From the NCBI GenBank assembly GCA_039938515.1, contig JBDUUL010000021.1:1-53079 (forward strand): a stretch of 53,079 bases of DNA, read 5' to 3'. The translations under genes were made by a program, and so were the position numbers. The DNA is from Nitrososphaera sp. (GTDB taxonomy: Archaea; Thermoproteota; Nitrososphaeria; Nitrososphaerales; Nitrososphaeraceae). The notes beneath the pieces were generated by a model that had not been told where the DNA came from, did no database searches, and saw only the letters and a program-made list of their open reading frames with translations. Shown here one piece after another: positions 34,253 to 43,360 of the stretch (position 1 is its first letter; each line of letters starts with the position of its first letter).

Positions 34253-35161
34253 TTGCCCGGCGGCAGAACCTCCATGAACCGCATGGGACGTTCGGGCGCG
34301 TCCGCGTTCCTTTCACCAGTCGCGGGTCGGTCGTTTTTGAAGTGGGCGGGCGGCAAGAGGCAGTTGCTTTCAGACATCCTGCCGATGGTTCCGGATTTCC
34401 AAAACTATGTTGAGCCTTTCCTCGGGGGAGGCGCTGTATTCTTTGCCCTGTCGTCCGCGCGGCCGGGTTTTCGAGCAATTCTAGGCGATTCCAATGCCCC
34501 ATTGATCCAAACCTACAGAGTCGTTATGGACAACCCAGCGGCACTTGTCGACCTGCTTTTCAAGCACGAGCTTGAGTATAACGCGGATCCTGAAGGATTT
34601 TATTATTCGCTGCGCGACCAAAAACCTTCGGACAGCCTGTCGACCGCGGCCAGATTCATTGCTCTCAACAGGACTTGTTACAACGGCCTTTACCGGGTAA
34701 ATAGCAAGGGAGAATTCAACGTGCCTATGGGTCGTTATCGAAATCCCAAGATCTGCAACCGCGATGTTCTGGTTCAGTCAAGCGCTGCCCTTCGAGGTTG
34801 CCGCGCTCTCCTGCTCAACGAAGACTATGAAAGGGTTGCCTCGCTTGCCAGCAAGGGAGACTTTGTCTACCTGGATCCCCCATTCGCCCCGGAAAGCCGG
34901 ACGGCAAATTTCGTCGGGTATACCAGTTCAGGTTTTGGCGAGCGTGAACAGCAGAGGCTAGCCAAGGTTTTCCACATGCTTGATGGCAAGGGTTGCAATG
35001 TACTGCTGAGCAATTCTGATACACCCGTCGTACGGGACTTGTATTCTGGGTTTTCAAGCACGACTGCAAGAGTTCCGGCGCTTCGTTCTATCAACTCAGT
35101 TGGAGCGAGGAGGACAAGCCACAGCGAGCTTCTTATCCGAAACTACCGGGTCAATTGGTAA
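34253..35161 (+). CDS. Dam-type N6-adenine DNA methyltransferase (D12 class)
   Basis: A 302-residue alpha-class adenine methyltransferase. The SAM motif is FLKWAGGKRQLL followed by YVEPFLGGGAVFFAL, and the catalytic motif is FVYLDPPFAPE. Length and order match Dam/DpnM-type enzymes. No restriction gene adjoins it, so it is probably an orphan methylase for gene control or protection. The start is TTG 34253 or ATG 34274 (MNRMGRSG). Confidence 0.9.
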   Translation: MPGGRTSMNRMGRSGASAFLSPVAGRSFLKWAGGKRQLLSDILPMVPDFQNYVEPFLGGGAVFFALSSARPGFRAILGDSNAPLIQTYRVVMDNPAALVDLLFKHELEYNADPEGFYYSLRDQKPSDSLSTAARFIALNRTCYNGLYRVNSKGEFNVPMGRYRNPKICNRDVLVQSSAALRGCRALLLNEDYERVASLASKGDFVYLDPPFAPESRTANFVGYTSSGFGEREQQRLAKVFHMLDGKGCNVLLSNSDTPVVRDLYSGFSSTTARVPALRSINSVGARRTSHSELLIRNYRVNW

Positions 35162-35632: not shown

Positions 35633-35723
35633 CGGGCCGGATTTCCGCTCCTGATTTCAGCCAAACGTGCGTTGACGGTAGTCAAAATAGGTTTTTAAGT
35701 CAAAAACGATGCGGATACCGCGA

Positions 35724-36107
35724 ATGAGTGACCAACCGAGAATTATGGTAGTTGAGGATGACCAGGATATTCTTACACTAGTGATTAGGCATTTACTTGC
35801 GAATCACTTCGATGCGGTGGGGTTCAGCGATCCGCTGAAGGCGCTTGCTGATTTCAAATCCGACCCGGCAAAGTACGACGTACTTCTCACAGACATTCGG
35901 ATGCCGGGGATGAATGGAATAGAGCTGGCGGCCCACGTCACAAGGTTAAACCCAATGACAAAAATAATGATAATGACCGCACACGAACTCTTTCCGGAGG
36001 ACCTCCGCCTGCGGCTGCCGATAATTAGCCACCGGGACATTCTTCGAAAGCCATTCCAGTTGGCGGAAGTTTGCAACCGACTAAGAAAGCTCGTCGATGC
36101 CAACTGA
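35724..36107 (+). CDS. Receiver-only response regulator (type A, host copy)
   Basis: A 127-residue CheY-like domain with the acidic pair EDD near residue 10, phospho-acceptor Asp in VLLTDIRMPG, the switch Thr in IMTAH and the lysine in LRKPF. No output domain. A gtttttaagtc box lies about 30 nt before ATG 35724; the ATG at 35709 is an alternative. It is closely similar to the island-borne regulator at 37874 (shared FSDPLKAL-DFK-DP-KY and LTDIRMPGMNG). Confidence 0.9.
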   Translation: MSDQPRIMVVEDDQDILTLVIRHLLANHFDAVGFSDPLKALADFKSDPAKYDVLLTDIRMPGMNGIELAAHVTRLNPMTKIMIMTAHELFPEDLRLRLPIISHRDILRKPFQLAEVCNRLRKLVDAN

Positions 36108-37360: not shown

Positions 37361-37533
37361 GCCTCTTCCAAGGAGAGTTCATTATTTCAGGTTATTCGGC
37401 CGGCCGTGGTGCTAAGGCAACATCGAACAAAGCAGAGAGTTGCCCGACTGCACATAGGGGGAAAGATCCTTCACCGACAGCGGATGCGCCCTTCGCGAAT
37501 GGAACTTGCAGTCGGCCGTGAAACCCAGGCAGG

Positions 37534-37560
37534 AAAACGGGCGCGTGCCAGCAGTAACCC
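37534..37560 (-). repeat. Left attachment-like repeat (copy of rnpB 3' end)
   Basis: On the minus strand it reads gggttactgctggcacgcgc then ccgtttt, identical to 40408-40434. Because rnpB is read leftward, this is the displaced duplicate of its 3' end, as expected after site-specific integration. Confidence 0.88.
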
Positions 37561-37710
37561 CGGGTAAATTCGGGTGGGTTTCTACCCTTTATTTTTAGTA
37601 GTTAGTTAGTTTTACGCACTGCTTGTTGCAATACAAACGACTGTTTATTTGAAACCATGTGTAATTTTACTTGCCTGCAAGTGGCTGTTACCGTGGTTCG
37701 TCATTTTCAA

Positions 37711-37732
37711 CCCGTCGGCTTTGGCCGGCGGG
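37711..37732. other. Hairpin before the island regulator
   Basis: CCCGTCGGC-tttg-GCCGGCGGG pairs over nine positions with one G:T, followed by ctttaa. The arm ggccggcgggctt recurs at about 38296-38308 after the gene at 37874. Confidence 0.6.
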
Positions 37733-37873
37733 CTTTAACTTTCGAAACGCCGCTGCTACAGGTTGCAAAGTTGTGTACGATTGAAGCGCGGCTTTTAGCT
37801 ATGTCTCGGCTGGCTACTTTACAGCAACTTTTTATCGCTGCTTAAACAATTAACCAATAAGTGCGATTTACAA

Positions 37874-38257
37874 TTGTCAATTGCCATACGGCTGCTAGTT
37901 GTTGAAGACGAACCAGACATACTTTACCTAGTACAAAAGCACTTGCGCAATAACGGCTTTGAACCTACCGGCTTTAGCGACCCATTAAAGGCGCTAGACG
38001 ATTTCAAAGCCGACCCGACAAAGTATTCGCTGGTACTTACCGATATTCGAATGCCGGGCATGAACGGCGTTGACTTGGCACACGAGTTACTAAACATAAA
38101 CCCAAGTGTAAGGGTCATTCTAATTACAGCATACGACGTTATTTCAGACGACTTGCGTGCAAAGCTACCCGTGGTTTCAATAGACGATATTATTCGCAAA
38201 CCCTTCAGGCTTGTCGAGATTTGCAATAGGGTAAAGCAACTTACAAGCGCAAACTAG
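37874..38257 (+). CDS. Receiver-only response regulator (type A, island copy)
   Basis: A 127-residue CheY-like protein: acidic residues in VVEDEPD, Asp in VLTDIRMPG, Thr in LITAYD and Lys in IIRKPF. It aligns along its whole length with the host regulator at 35724-36107 (same FSDPLKALDDFKADPTKY framework, same C-terminal VEICNRVKQL). All glycine codons avoid GGA and no serine is TCC. It starts at TTG 37874. Probably captured from, or shared with, host-type genes and re-shaped in composition. Confidence 0.88.
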   Translation: MSIAIRLLVVEDEPDILYLVQKHLRNNGFEPTGFSDPLKALDDFKADPTKYSLVLTDIRMPGMNGVDLAHELLNINPSVRVILITAYDVISDDLRAKLPVVSIDDIIRKPFRLVEICNRVKQLTSAN

Positions 38258-38285
38258 TTTTCAAAACCATGCACCTAACTAAGTT

Positions 38286-38303
38286 CGCCGGTTAAGGCCG
38301 GCG
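38286..38303. terminator. Hairpin after the island regulator
   Basis: CGCCGG-ttaagg-CCGGCG lies 28 bp after the stop of 37874-38257 and is followed by ggcttaat. It may end that transcript or belong to the repeat shared with 37711-37732. Confidence 0.45.
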
Positions 38304-38505
38304 GGCTTAATCACTAATAATTGCAAATTCGTCGTGACCCGTTTCTATGCAATGTACGTTAAAGTGAACAATTGTATCGAATGATAGTTTACACTCGGCG
38401 CAGACGAATTTAATCGGCATAAAACCGGCACTTGGCTTATTCTGCGCATACTTAAGCAATACGTAACTGTGTGACGTATGTCATGCATAATTCGACAGTT
38501 GCAGC

Positions 38506-38880
38506 CTAGCGCTTTTCGAAATGCGTTTGAATATGCATAGCAAGTTCGCTTGGCGCAACTGGTTTTCTAATAAAGCAATGGCTTGGCAGGTGTGGCAGCG
38601 TCTTTCTTACTTCGTCGATGCCAATATCGTAAGCAGAAAAAAAGCAAATTTGCAGGTTATTGCTTTTCTGCCATAGCATACGGGCAAGTTCAAAGCCAGA
38701 CATTCTTGGCATACGAATGTCAAGTAAGGCAACGTCGTAATTGGTCGGGTCGCATTTGGCTGCTAGCAACGGGTCGTTGAATGCATCTACTTTGTAACCT
38801 TTTATTGTCAAGCCCCTTGATACTGTAGCTGTGATATCGCGGTCGTCGTCTACAATTAGCAGTCTATTTTTGGTTACCAT
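38506..38880 (-). CDS. Receiver-only response regulator (type B, island copy)
   Basis: A 124-residue receiver: LIVDDDRDIT, phospho-acceptor Asp in VALLDIRMPR, Ser in CFFSAYD and Lys in FIRKPV. It is closest to the regulator at 47777-48139 outside the island (shared ARxLWQxxxNLxxCFxSA and C-terminal AxHIQxHF). A complete lack of GGA/TCC in both strands distinguishes its DNA. The region 38258-38505 between the two regulators has no recognised gene. Confidence 0.88.
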   Translation of the reverse strand: MVTKNRLLIVDDDRDITATVSRGLTIKGYKVDAFNDPLLAAKCDPTNYDVALLDIRMPRMSGFELARMLWQKSNNLQICFFSAYDIGIDEVRKTLPHLPSHCFIRKPVAPSELAMHIQTHFEKR

Positions 38881-39040
38881 TTAACAAGCCTGCCGCAAGA
38901 ACGTTATTGTTTTTTAATGCTGCCGATATTTAATGCAAATTAATTCAGTCGATTAAATGAAGTTGCTTTGGTCAAATGTTCTAGAACTTATTTGCGCTGT
39001 GCTTTAATACGCAAGTCGTCAGCTAACGCACGCTTGTATC

Positions 39041-39226
39041 GTGACTGTTAACCTTGAAGACCTAAGCATTTCCGAACTTTTCAAATACCTTGAAGAAATG
39101 GGCGTAAATTGCTCGCAGCTACGCAAGGCACAGTGTATCATGAAAAGTGAAAATGTTCGCCAATGCCTTTACCAACTGCTTGAAAACCACATAAAACACA
39201 AAGCCTACAAAGACGCAATGCGCTGA
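39041..39226 (+). CDS. Small helical protein in the island (61 aa)
   Basis: The frame MTVNLEDLSISELFKYLEEMGVNCSQLRKAQCIMKSENVRQCL is strongly helical with three cysteines. It starts at GTG 39041, about 35 nt after a ctttaatac box. It contains the only TCC of the island (39071-39073). Family not recognised; it may be a partner of the regulators or a DNA-binding protein. Confidence 0.55.
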   Translation: MTVNLEDLSISELFKYLEEMGVNCSQLRKAQCIMKSENVRQCLYQLLENHIKHKAYKDAMR

Positions 39227-40407
39227 ATTACGACAATTGTAAGCTGGTAGTAGTCAAGACATGTGTACTTTTTAATTGCAATGCGATATTTCGGTAATTA
39301 AGCCGAACGATACCTTACGCATGCGCCAAGTTTCAGCAGGTAATCGGCAGAAGGTCAGTGCTTCGATTACTTCTGCCCTTACCTGTTTTTGTACCTAAAT
39401 GGGCGAGTAATTTTTGCCGCTGCCTGCACCTACATTTGAAAGTAAAGAATAAGCGCAAATGCAGTAAGCGCTATTGCCGCAATTATGATTACCTTGTGTT
39501 GCACGGCGATGTTTTGCGCAATGTGAAGTTAAGCCTTGACTAACCTTGTTAACGGGCGACTAACATTTGTCTAGAAGACTTTTACTTAGACATGAATTTG
39601 CCCTTGTAACAAACTGCCAGCCCGGTAAATTTCGGTCGCGTTTTCAAAAGGTGGGGGGTGGGTTTGTTCGCAAACCAGCCGCGCCGAAGGGTGGGTTACA
39701 GTAGTACGTTTTTGCTACTAGTAAACATAACTGACCGAAACGAGCGACGGCTCACTGCGCTATGCTTCGTTCGCCGAACGACAAAAGACGATATGTAGAC
39801 GCTTGGCAAAAGCTTGTTACAGTCGTTCGGCTTTGTACGGTAAACCGCGGGTATGCTGACAAAATGACAATACTAGTTTCGTGCGTAAATTCGCATTTTG
39901 ACAAAATGGTGTTGTCAAAATACGCATATTCGTGCTTGGCAAGCGTTTTGTCATTTTGTCACGGCAGGTAGGGTAGGCAGTAAACCCACGGTTGCCCACC
40001 GTGGTTAACTTTGCAGTCGACCATAACACGGCGACCTGTTTGCTTAAGTCGGCTTAGGTCGCACGTGTTTGTTAACACTGCTACAGCCTTGCTAAAGTCG
40101 GCGTAAGCCGAACCTACCTTTTTTTATTTCAGGTCAATTTGACCTGCAACAATTACTAAATGCGACTGGCACAAAATTGGTGTTGCTTATGCCAAAACAG
40201 CAAAGCGACGATAACAAGCCAAGGCTTTTTGCCAATAATGCCAACATACTTTTACAACATTCGACTTACGCCGAACCACGACAACGACGAAAAACAGCAC
40301 AAAACTACCAAGTTCGAACACCTAAAAGCGAAATTCGCAATGCCCTTGTCGAAAATTGTAGCAAAAATGCACCAACTAGCAAAAGTAAACCACTGAAACC
40401 CACCCTA
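39227..40407. other. Repeat-rich region of the island, probably non-coding
   Basis: No convincing gene of useful size is seen. Minus-strand 39504-39430 could encode a 24-residue hydrophobic peptide (VQHKVIIIAAIALTAFALILYFQM), weakly supported. Short inverted repeats abound: AACCCACGG/CCGTGGTT near 39983-40007, AGGTCAA/TTGACCT near 40131-40145, and the ACAAAATG cluster at 39857-39961. GGGTGGGTTT words recur at 37571, 39656 and, inverted, at 40395. Confidence 0.45.
39857..39961. repeat. Iteron-like cluster of TGACAAAATG words
   Basis: TGACAAAATGACAA (39857-39870) is the perfect inverse of TTGTCATTTTGTCA (39948-39961). Between them is a 15-bp palindrome CATTTTG-A-CAAAATG (39894-39908) and a partial TTGTCAAAATA. 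This density suggests binding sites for a replication initiator, regulator or recombinase. Confidence 0.7.
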
Positions 40408-40434
40408 AAAACGGGCGCGTGCCAGCAGTAACCC
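40408..40434 (-). repeat. Right attachment-like repeat (native rnpB 3' end)
   Basis: Identical to 37534-37560. It includes the 3' strand of the P1 helix and a T run, so the integrated island keeps the RNA complete. Confidence 0.88.
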
Positions 40435-40697
40435 TCCTTCTGTTTTAGGCGGGATTCCGCTGAGCAGCCTACCTGAGCAGGTGCAGGTCCCTCTGGCTCT
40501 GTTTGGCCTTGCTCCGCCCGGGACGTCAGTTTCATTCCCGTGTCAGGAAATCTCAGGCTTGTCGCCATCATTGTAACCAGAAGGCCTAACCGGATCTCTT
40601 TTCTGTTACGTTGCCAGCCGTCTCCGGCTAACTATCGCTAGTTCGGGCGCCTGCTATGAGGGAGGAGTTTCCTCTCGTTTGAGTCACCCGCCCGCTG
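40408..40697 (-). ncRNA. rnpB: RNase P RNA
   Basis: The minus strand holds the conserved 5' element gaGAGGAAActcctccc, then ggagcaaggccaaacagag in the middle and ACAGAAggagggttactg before the 3' end, in the order and spacing of archaeal RNase P RNA (conserved regions I, II/III and V). The ends pair as P1: CGGGCGGGTG with CACGCGCCCG (nine of ten pairs). A taataac TATA-like box (about 40728-40736) precedes it. About 290 nt. It cleaves 5' leaders from pre-tRNA with its proteins. The last 27 nt are duplicated at 37534-37560 by the island. Confidence 0.85.
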
Positions 40698-40745
40698 GCT
40701 CGCGCAGGTAGGCATACAGGCAATCTCGTTATTATCGTTGTTCCT

Positions 40746-41332: not shown

Positions 41333-42697
41333 ATGACGGAAGCAACTGAAATGCCGGCGATCCTTGGCCTACGGTTTCCATTTGATTTGAAAAAGGATCA
41401 GATCGAAGCAGTGGACGCATGGGTCCAGAACGGGTGCAGAGGGTCGGTGATTTTTAGCACTGGGACAGGCAAGACAGAGATCGCATTCGAGTGTGCACGA
41501 AGAGCTGCCCAGGCGCTGTCGCCCCCGGAGGAGAGGCTTTTGGAAGGAACCTCGCGCCAGTTCCGCGTACTTTTCCTAGTCCCGCGGATAGTCCTGATTG
41601 AGCAGAACCTAAGGCGGCTGCGGAATTACGGCATCGCAGACGACTGCCTCGGTGTATATTATGGCGAAAAAAAGAACGCATCTGAAATAACTATCAGCAC
41701 CTATCAGAGTGCGATAAACAACAGGGAACTGATTTCCGACGCGCACATGGTCGTGCTTGACGAGGTTCATTTGATAAGCGAAACGGCATCCGAGTTTGAC
41801 AAGATCTTTGACGTTCTCGTCGAGGACCCAAGGAAGGCAATACTGGGACTAACTGCGACTATAGACGAGAGAGACCCAAAGTATCAGACAATCCTTACGG
41901 TGCTTCCCCCGGTGAAGAAATACCACATCAAGGACGCTGTCGATGACGGCAGGCTAGCCAAGCCGGTTCTAAAGCCAATCGAGGTCAGGTTTAACCCTGA
42001 AGAGCAGGAAAAGTACGACCAGCTTACAGCCAATATCAAGGAAATCTCGCGCAAACTTCAGGCTTATGATCCTATTCGGATGACTCGCATCCTCGGGAGG
42101 GGCGGCCCGCGGGCTACGCTTGCCAAGGCCTGGTTTGCAAGCGTCCGTGAAAGGAAGAACCTGCTCAGCTCGACTGAATTGAAGCTCCGCAAGGCGGTCG
42201 AGGTTGTAAAGAGCCACCCCGGCGAGCGGATTATGATATTTAGCGAAACAATTGACTCCATCGAGCTCTTGAGGACAATACTTGAGCAGGAGGGAATCCG
42301 GGCGCGGAGCATACACAACGGCATCAAGCCGAGGGAGCGGCATGAAATACTCGCAAGCTGGGGGGAGGACTATTTCCCCCTGCTCTCTGTGCACACGCTT
42401 GAAATCGGCTATGACGTTCCGCAGGCTGGAATCGCGATAATTATTGCAAGCACATCGAACATGAACCAGGTGGCGCAGCGAATCGGACGTGTCGTCAGGA
42501 TATCTGAAGGCAAGAACCACGCGCTGGTCTATGTCATATACGTGGCCGGCTCTAAAGACACCAACGTGCTCAAGGTGATGTCTGCGGCGATAGAGAAGCG
42601 AGACCTCACGGCACCCTCTGCAGGAGTGAAGGCTGACAAGCCCGCGGCTAAGCCTAGGCCTGTCCGGGGGCAGAAAACGCTAACCAAGTTCTCATGA
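41333..42697 (+). CDS. SF2 helicase (XPB/Rad25-like)
   Basis: A 454-residue helicase. The Q-like region is DLKKDQIEAVDAW, Walker A is IFSTGTGKTEIAF, motif II is LDEVHLIS (DEVH), motif III is GLTATID, and motif VI is QRIGRVVR. The size and GTGKTE/DEVH pair resemble XPB-type DNA helicases in nucleotide excision repair or transcription. The linker between the RecA domains is charged and helical. It ends with a six-base overlap with the converging gene at 42692. Confidence 0.85.
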   Translation: MTEATEMPAILGLRFPFDLKKDQIEAVDAWVQNGCRGSVIFSTGTGKTEIAFECARRAAQALSPPEERLLEGTSRQFRVLFLVPRIVLIEQNLRRLRNYGIADDCLGVYYGEKKNASEITISTYQSAINNRELISDAHMVVLDEVHLISETASEFDKIFDVLVEDPRKAILGLTATIDERDPKYQTILTVLPPVKKYHIKDAVDDGRLAKPVLKPIEVRFNPEEQEKYDQLTANIKEISRKLQAYDPIRMTRILGRGGPRATLAKAWFASVRERKNLLSSTELKLRKAVEVVKSHPGERIMIFSETIDSIELLRTILEQEGIRARSIHNGIKPRERHEILASWGEDYFPLLSVHTLEIGYDVPQAGIAIIIASTSNMNQVAQRIGRVVRISEGKNHALVYVIYVAGSKDTNVLKVMSAAIEKRDLTAPSAGVKADKPAAKPRPVRGQKTLTKFS

Positions 42698-43360
42698 GCC
42701 GGCCTGACCGCGGTACACCGAGCTCAGCATGGAGCTCGTGCTCTCGAGGTAGGTGTCGATGTCCATCTCGACTACCTTGCCTTCATCAATGTTAATGATG
42801 TAAACGAGCTGGAGCCTTGCGTTTAGAATGTCCTGCTCCGAGACAGGTGGAGACTTGTAATACCTGTCACAGAGCGCCTTTACCTCCGCCACCTCCTCTG
42901 CCTTTCTGTCCCTTGGCGGCCTCCGAAAGAGAGGAGGGATCGGCAGGATGCTCACGGGAGGCGTTGCAAGTACAAACTGGTTCGCATAGGCGCTGTACCT
43001 TGCGACCTTGCTTGCAATTCTTGCAAAATAGTAAGAGAGCGGGTCAAGTGCGTGCTCCGGCGGGATAAATCCGGTCTCTATTTCGACGATGGTGTTTCCG
43101 TCTCCTTTGGTTGCAAAAACGTCGCACACAAGGATGTCGCTGAGCTGCTTTTCGACGTCGACCTCGTAGCCATATCGCACAAGATGCTTGGCGCAAACAA
43201 GCTCCATCGCAGAGTGGTTTATCTTGACAAGATTCCTTTGGTAAAGCGAGATCAGCCTGTTTCGCACAAACAGCATCCTCTCGGTCATTTCGGCCGACTC
43301 GCCCGATGCCATTCGTTCGGAAAGTGCGGTGACATCGGCGATAAACTGCTCTAAGTCCAA
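42692..43360 (-). CDS. Hypothetical protein with a nuclease-like fold pattern
   Basis: A 222-residue protein. The stretch HSAMELVCAKHLVRYGYEVDVEKQLSDILVCDVFATK...TIVEIETGF resembles the PD-(D/E)xK core (helix Glu, then D-V and E-x-E), but the usual lysine is Glu, so catalysis is uncertain. The rest contains a Pro-rich loop (LPIPPLFRRPP). Converges with the helicase with six bases shared, so the two are near neighbours but not an operon. Confidence 0.6.
   Translation of the reverse strand: MDLEQFIADVTALSERMASGESAEMTERMLFVRNRLISLYQRNLVKINHSAMELVCAKHLVRYGYEVDVEKQLSDILVCDVFATKGDGNTIVEIETGFIPPEHALDPLSYYFARIASKVARYSAYANQFVLATPPVSILPIPPLFRRPPRDRKAEEVAEVKALCDRYYKSPPVSEQDILNARLQLVYIINIDEGKVVEMDIDTYLESTSSMLSSVYRGQAGS

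Follow-up and report, generated by a model that had tools for sequence, protein, structure and literature searches.

What keeps almost three kilobases of archaeal DNA nearly free of a single trinucleotide? The window analysed here is a stretch of 53,079 nucleotides from a Nitrososphaera sp. genome, and an earlier note, made by reading its letters, had pointed to an island at 37534-40434, bounded by two 27-bp direct repeats, in which GGA/TCC is almost missing. The locus therefore raises three questions: whether the void is real, what kind of DNA carries it, and what could have imposed it.

A trinucleotide void in the window

Exact counting agrees with the one TCC (39071-39073) and the absence of GGA first reported for the island. 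The closest sites beyond its borders are a GGA at 37532, as previously given, and a TCC whose actual position is 40435 rather than 40436. An order-1 Markov model of the island's own dinucleotides predicts 38 GGA/TCC (never fewer than 22 across 500 simulations), base composition predicts 79, and an order-2 Markov model built on the host flanks predicts 90 (never fewer than 54 across 500). The first of these is conservative, because the void itself lowers it, and it gives a Poisson p of 1.2e-15. Real host windows of equal length (n = 3,094) hold a median of 91 and a minimum of 38, and those with the lowest counts overlap another void element. The 1.86 Mb scanned, 73% of the host genome, contains 30.9 GGA/TCC per kb, and stretches free of it outside recognised elements reach at most ~600 bp. 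The count is thus far from the expected frequency, genome-wide order-2 composition does not account for it, and the void of the island is confirmed as real.

GGA/TCC is the extreme among all 32 trinucleotide classes in the island. The second most depleted class is GAG/CTC, with 8 occurrences (the figure of about eight in the earlier note was right) against 38 expected; this depletion is confined to the window element and its same-genome relatives, with a milder trend in two short segments. AGG/CCT had been called common, and its 53 occurrences do equal the Markov-1 expectation, yet they amount to about half of the host rate. The window element and its sisters also avoid TGAT/AGAT and TATA. As had been claimed, the void covers both strands and coding as well as non-coding DNA, the ~1,956 non-coding bases being depleted like the genes.

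An element integrated at the RNase P RNA gene

The features of the island and its target are as follows.

37534..40434, no strand: integrated mobile element nearly free of GGA/TCC, both attachment repeats included (1 GGA/TCC against 38-90 expected; exact 27-bp direct repeats at its ends)
37534..37560, plus strand: left 27-bp direct repeat, a copy of the rnpB 3' end, identical to 40408-40434
37874..38257, plus strand: receiver-only response regulator 1, 127 aa (Pfam Response_reg, 4.5e-20)
38506..38880, minus strand: receiver-only response regulator 2, 124 aa (Pfam Response_reg, 4.4e-17), with a homologue in the C15 element
39041..39226, plus strand: small ORF of 61 aa without known family (ORF list, family search), containing the single TCC (39071)
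39545..39780, no strand: non-coding block common to the window element and the void element of another species, G003 (73% identity over ~230 bp)
39857..39961, no strand: inverted-repeat region from a repeat search; single-stranded, it could fold into a strong hairpin (DNA folding z = -4.8)
40408..40434, plus strand: right 27-bp direct repeat, comprising the last 18 nt of the RNase P RNA and the downstream T-run (repeat and RNase P RNA match)
40417..40703, minus strand: archaeal RNase P RNA gene (rnpB), the integration target, intact (Rfam RF00373, 184.5 bits, E 2.8e-53)

The earlier note did not identify the right repeat with the rnpB 3' end. Two relatives have an identical copy of an 18-bp core of this repeat at their rnpB. 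The gene in the window is undamaged, positions 1-288 of the 288 in the RF00373 model being covered. The identity of the right repeat makes the island an integration at the end of rnpB, like those of mobile elements at tRNA genes: both 27-bp repeats match the rnpB 3' end, as expected of an integrative element targeted to an RNA gene, and they are the attachment sites of the insertion. Two further GGA-poor segments of this genome carry copies of response regulator 1, at 80% and 75% amino acid identity. Around 2 kb of the element is non-coding, including the block shared with G003, a candidate origin or mobilisation module; a 117-bp non-coding match links the same two elements. The ORF list and family search gave no integrase in the window element, and no replication gene was found in it; we call it non-autonomous because it lacks an integrase of its own.

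A family of GGA-void elements

The phenomenon is wider than could be seen from the window, because the island is one member of a family. With it, 13 GGA-poor integrated segments are known from eight Nitrososphaeraceae genomes of two genera, mostly adjoining tRNA or RNase P RNA genes and carrying mostly unrelated genes. That the void belongs to a mobile element delimited by the 27-bp repeats is supported by its recurrence in 12 further integrated segments. The other segments, with one weaker candidate, are listed below.

G000 (the window's host), C10 segment, 1,030 bp: beside tRNA-Thr; 2 GGA/TCC; found by homology
G000, C12 segment, 405 bp: 0 GGA/TCC; found by homology
G000, C15 segment, 1.4 kb: 4 GGA/TCC; found by void scan; carries a response regulator
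G000, C10:214937-215849: 0 GGA/TCC; found by void scan
G000, C1:140087-140680: beside tRNA-Pro; weaker candidate
G003 (Nitrososphaeraceae Centralia_MAG_223), 1,949 bp: ends at tRNA-Val; 1 GGA/TCC; found by homology
G020 (Centralia_MAG_167), 8.6 kb: in tRNA-Gly, 45-bp repeat; 2 GGA/TCC (125-207 expected); found by homology
G020, 924 bp: at tRNA-Ala; 0 GGA/TCC; found by homology
G016, 485 bp: at tRNA-Val; 0 GGA/TCC; found by homology
G014 (complete, single contig, 2,527,938 bp), 2.4 kb: in tRNA-Gly, 51-bp repeat; 9 GGA/TCC; found by homology
G007, 1,956 bp: at tRNA-Val; 5 GGA/TCC; found by homology
G011, 1,365 bp: directly after rnpB; 5 GGA/TCC
G008, 526 bp: directly after rnpB; 1 GGA/TCC

Segments were first found by homology, without using GGA, and then turned out to be void; the C15 segment and C10:214937-215849 came from a scan for GGA voids in 1.86 Mb of the host. 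By eye the latter resembled a broken tyrosine integrase, an identification that tblastn and Pfam did not support. Members are largely non-homologous to each other in their DNA. Two homology clusters exist, one of response regulators, those of the window being common to the C10, C12 and C15 segments, and one of a CxxC protein at the tRNA boundary; the ~230-bp non-coding block of the window and G003 elements joins the two.

Pooling the first eleven elements, with the rnpB segments of G011 and G008 left out, gives 24 GGA/TCC against 580 expected from base composition, while the next lowest trinucleotide stands at 53% of its expectation. Each of the eleven is low on its own (Poisson p between 4e-51 and 2e-3, Markov-1 expectation). 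GGA-blind tests gave the same picture, with six of six strong homologues of the boundary protein sitting in void DNA and, among eleven relatives whose rnpB surroundings had been taken for another purpose, two (G011 and G008) in which rnpB is directly followed by GGA-poor DNA; similarity of this DNA to other void elements was not detectable. The void is a family trait, and the island belongs to a family of small mobile DNAs of soil ammonia-oxidising archaea that are nearly without GGA/TCC.

Weak matches to the boundary protein (24-28 bits, in low-GC genomes) showed no void in GGA or a comparable word, and the integrase relatives (35-38% identity) that two other genomes of the order contain lack a GGA void. 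Viral contigs held no relatives of the polymerase of the 8.6-kb element or of the boundary protein, and a phage collection gave no polymerase or integrase relatives, only weak bacterial-phage integrases. Ten matches of a conserved 16-nt word in viral contigs were set aside as chance, because all lie in GGA-normal DNA.

The 8.6-kb G020 element, the largest, encodes a PF00589 integrase and a family-B DNA polymerase (PolB; PF03175 match, 2.5e-9), for which the structure model was unusable (pLDDT 31.6). Defence-type cargo is carried by G007 (PD-T7-4, E 1.8e-81) and G014 (PDC-S05, E 2.4e-14), with a weak PDC-M14B/AbiTi-like domain in G020. The tRNA-Gly attachment sites contain one TCC/GGA, so that a free circle would not be wholly site-free.

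Avoidance at the level of DNA

The 8.6-kb element allows the avoidance to be followed through codons. Glycine makes up 4.7% of its ORFs against 5.2% in a host sample, and is encoded by GGC, GGT and GGG only, GGA being used not once. Codon junctions are likewise affected: the 22 Trp codons never stand before a codon with initial A, no T precedes any of the 74 Pro codons, and a G precedes just 2 of the 226 Asp/Glu codons. When its own codons were shuffled among synonymous positions, the mean was 73 GGA/TCC and the minimum 51, against the 2 observed. One cargo gene of the G003 element has a counterpart in another genome, located in GGA-normal DNA and 79% identical across 92 bp; the cargo gene shows GGC for the counterpart's GGA and TTTACC for its TTTCC. 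Taken with the 12 void segments carrying different genes, the normal glycine content and the junctions argue for a force on DNA as such, as the earlier note had proposed. Near-total loss over kilobases, on both strands and with coding DNA included, points to strong selection at every site. Avoidance of a ribosome-binding-like GGAG was considered and set aside, since AGG shows no avoidance and the void extends to both strands.

Where the rule acts and a proposed mechanism

Ten other tyrosine-integrase neighbourhoods in the same hosts carry 23-36 GGA/TCC per kb. Since these integrases lie in GGA-normal DNA, the present host is unlikely to impose a GGA rule on everything foreign, and the rule is specific to the mobile phase of this family, not to all DNA or all elements.

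The window element would, on the reading we favour, be a non-autonomous, satellite-like integrative element of Nitrososphaeraceae that a tyrosine recombinase acting in trans may have inserted at the rnpB 3' end. Its cargo appears swappable, with two response regulators in the window and anti-phage-type genes in two or three relatives, and the defence-like cargo fits a satellite-like life. Purifying selection in the mobile phase, acting on the free state, would keep the family nearly free of GGA/TCC, and integrated copies may slowly regain GGA, as the higher counts in some copies suggest. The range of 0 to 9 per element is consistent with such a return after integration, by which the window element, with its one TCC, would be recent. 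The selective agent may be a DNA nuclease or nickase for GGA/TCC met while the element is free, possibly supplied by a helper element or virus and sparing GGA-free DNA.

We hold this scheme as a whole, with a putative GGA/TCC nuclease as the most likely agent, at slightly less than even confidence. Avoidance of a GGA-specific nuclease is likewise preferred, tentatively, over each of its rivals, because a hazard at each single site best explains the near-complete absence. Enzymes with so short a target do exist, chloroviruses having site-specific nickases with 3-nt targets (Nt.CviPII /CCD and Nt.CviQXI R/AG; PMC7019647). Family searches recognised no nuclease in the 8.6-kb element, and neither a free form nor a helper of the family was seen. 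The earlier suggestion of evasion of a system recognising a 3-nt core stays the favoured type of explanation, although no such system has been found.

It should also be considered that an enzyme with an unprotected 3-nt target must spare, or deliberately destroy, host DNA with its 31 sites per kb. Avoidance of GAG/CTC, TGAT/AGAT and TATA is left unexplained by a pure GGA nuclease.

A bolder version, possible in our view but rather doubtful, is that the family tells itself from other DNA in the cell by the forbidden trinucleotide: a GGA-specific destroyer, its own or a helper's, would be tolerated by GGA-free DNA only, and the return of the word would time the insertion.

Alternative explanations

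The constraint might instead lie in the elements' own replication or transfer, if a polymerase, initiation or termination, packaging or single-strand passage fails at GGA/TCC, so that no mobile copy could carry the word. Such a cause would suit a rule that holds for this family while other integrative elements of the same hosts are exempt. The PF03175-type PolB of the largest member means that family members could share replication machinery, and the non-coding module common to the window and G003 elements is also compatible. The polymerase is, however, absent from most members, a trinucleotide ban over kilobases is foreign to the replication enzymes familiar to us, and we know of none that forbids a trinucleotide at this scale. 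We regard this as unlikely, if still to be reckoned with.

A lower probability goes to avoidance of a CRISPR PAM, TCC/GGA, used by Nitrososphaeraceae. A PAM is by nature a 2-3-nt, strand-symmetric recognition unit, cas1 and arrays are present in several relatives, and PAM depletion in phages is documented (PMC4246573, PMC12174588). The published effect is slight: across bacteria, the median log2 differences for type I-C lie in the hundredths, against at least 25-fold here. In the window's host (99.8% complete) cas1 gave no match and the 1.86 Mb scanned contains no array, G003 and G016 are likewise without cas1 matches, none of 240 spacers of relatives convincingly matches any void element, and other integrative elements in the same hosts are undepleted.

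Improbable to much the same degree, or a shade more so, is avoidance of a restriction-like host defence that marks its own DNA at GGA/TCC, by methylation or some other modification, and cuts unmarked DNA. So complete a void is what restriction avoidance typically produces, every site being dangerous, but conventional restriction sites are longer than three nucleotides, and the GGA-normal state of the ten other integrase neighbourhoods speaks against a defence of these hosts. DndB was not found in six carriers, and elements of two genera would require hosts of equal specificity.

A context-specific mutator, for instance a deaminase on TCC, could remove GGA/TCC from mobile DNA without selection and would hit both strands, coding and non-coding alike, as observed. 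The C-to-T products of TCC are nevertheless not enriched (GAA/TTC at 0.75 and AGA/TCT at 0.45-0.84 of host), and glycine and proline are largely kept through other codons, so selection fits better; of the two forces on DNA named earlier, mutation is thus very unlikely. That the island is just an odd low-GC fragment (GC 0.44 against 0.51 in the flanks) has a negligible chance of being right, plain composition being refuted by the order-1, order-2, codon-shuffle and real-window nulls and by the recurrence of the void in 12 other segments, most found by GGA-blind criteria.

Relation to known elements

In general type these elements are familiar, being small integrative DNAs located at RNA genes. 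They resemble the cryptic integrated elements of Thaumarchaeota (Krupovic et al. 2019, PMC6563490) in small size, in occurring in the same archaea, in the use of the 3' part of tRNA genes, in attachment repeats and in poorly known genes. Those elements are defined by an integrase, whereas the window element and most of its void relatives lack one; the survey, in the text searched, contains neither an RNase P RNA target nor a missing trinucleotide. RNase P goes unmentioned in the searched text of a review of archaeal tyrosine recombinases (PMC8371274).

In their workings the void elements are closer to phage satellites and phage-inducible islands, being short, non-autonomous, placed at RNA genes and equipped with swappable cargo that includes defence-type genes. 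The lack of integrase and replication genes in the window element would agree with reliance on a helper. They differ in having no recognised packaging or helper-hijacking genes and no known helper, and to our knowledge no sequence rule of the forbidden-word kind exists for phage satellites. Like pipolins, the 8.6-kb relative has a tyrosine recombinase together with a PolB and is targeted to a tRNA gene; its PolB is a PF03175 match only, and the window element has neither recombinase nor PolB. A casposon identity was rejected, as this relative has no convincing Cas1-type integrase: it uses the PF00589 enzyme, and a Cas1 match was noise (E 0.0014, in a 100-aa protein).

Restriction-site avoidance and PAM depletion (PMC4246573, PMC12174588) offer the nearest parallel for the void itself, a short word selected out of mobile DNA on both strands. 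The known cases concern longer sites or weak PAM depletion, while the void family is depleted of a 3-nt word by 96-99%, over as much as 8.6 kb. Chlorovirus nickases such as Nt.CviPII (PMC7019647) demonstrate that a virus can possess sequence-specific DNA nicking directed at a 3-nt word; some chloroviruses have companion methyltransferases, whereas the void elements would escape by lacking the word, and we recognised no enzyme of this type. In the literature searched, a limited collection, we found no element family marked by a forbidden trinucleotide.

Implications

We know of no rule that punishes GGA in mobile DNA, and our data suggest that something in the mobile life of these elements does. 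Strong selection at every site means that ammonia-oxidising archaea probably harbour an undescribed sequence-specific activity recognising only three bases. Operationally, a scan for GGA voids detects small integrase-less elements that gene-based searches miss, and in one genome it added two elements beyond homology; the number of regained GGA may also serve as a clock of insertion age. If the cause is a nuclease, this would be a new self-protection route for mobile DNA, and if the forbidden-word reading is true, self would be told from non-self by a missing word and not by modification. Forbidden-word families of this sort may also occur elsewhere.

Further avoided words in the island

The island (37534-40434) and its relatives in the same genome are also poor in GAG/CTC, AGAT and TGAT and lack TATA entirely, while CGAN is tolerated. 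This second avoidance is mainly limited to elements of the window's own genome.

Genes around the island and in other mini-elements

34253-35161, +, Dam-family DNA adenine methyltransferase (TIGR00571, 1.9e-75)
35709-36107, +, host response regulator, neighbouring the island
41333-43360, helicase similar to XPB and to phosphorothioation-type restriction helicases
L073:15082-15723 and L071:17600-18382 (stretches of related genomes), candidate anti-phage genes in mini-elements (PD-T7-4 and PDC-S05 models)

The host response regulator shares 54% identity with the island's first response regulator and carries 15 GGA/TCC within its 399 nt; it is a possible source of the island's cargo. The methyltransferase gene lies about 2.4 kb from the island, and in the related genome G008 a similar gene (L232:2387-3244) sits directly past a GGA-poor segment adjacent to rnpB. 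Beside the helicase, a 222-aa ORF without family occupies the opposite strand.

Further GGA-poor segments and a non-coding block

Elsewhere in the host genome, L171:9937-10849 is without GGA and holds a disrupted reading frame resembling a tyrosine integrase by eye, an identity supported by neither tblastn nor Pfam. Weak GGA depletion marks L080:87-680 (contig C1 of the same genome, G000, 140087-140680), which adjoins tRNA-Pro, contains a small C2H2-like ORF and is possibly an older, decayed member of the GGA-void family. Within the island, a non-coding block is conserved with an element of another species and is followed by a strong hairpin; together these (39545-39961) are a candidate origin or mobilisation site.
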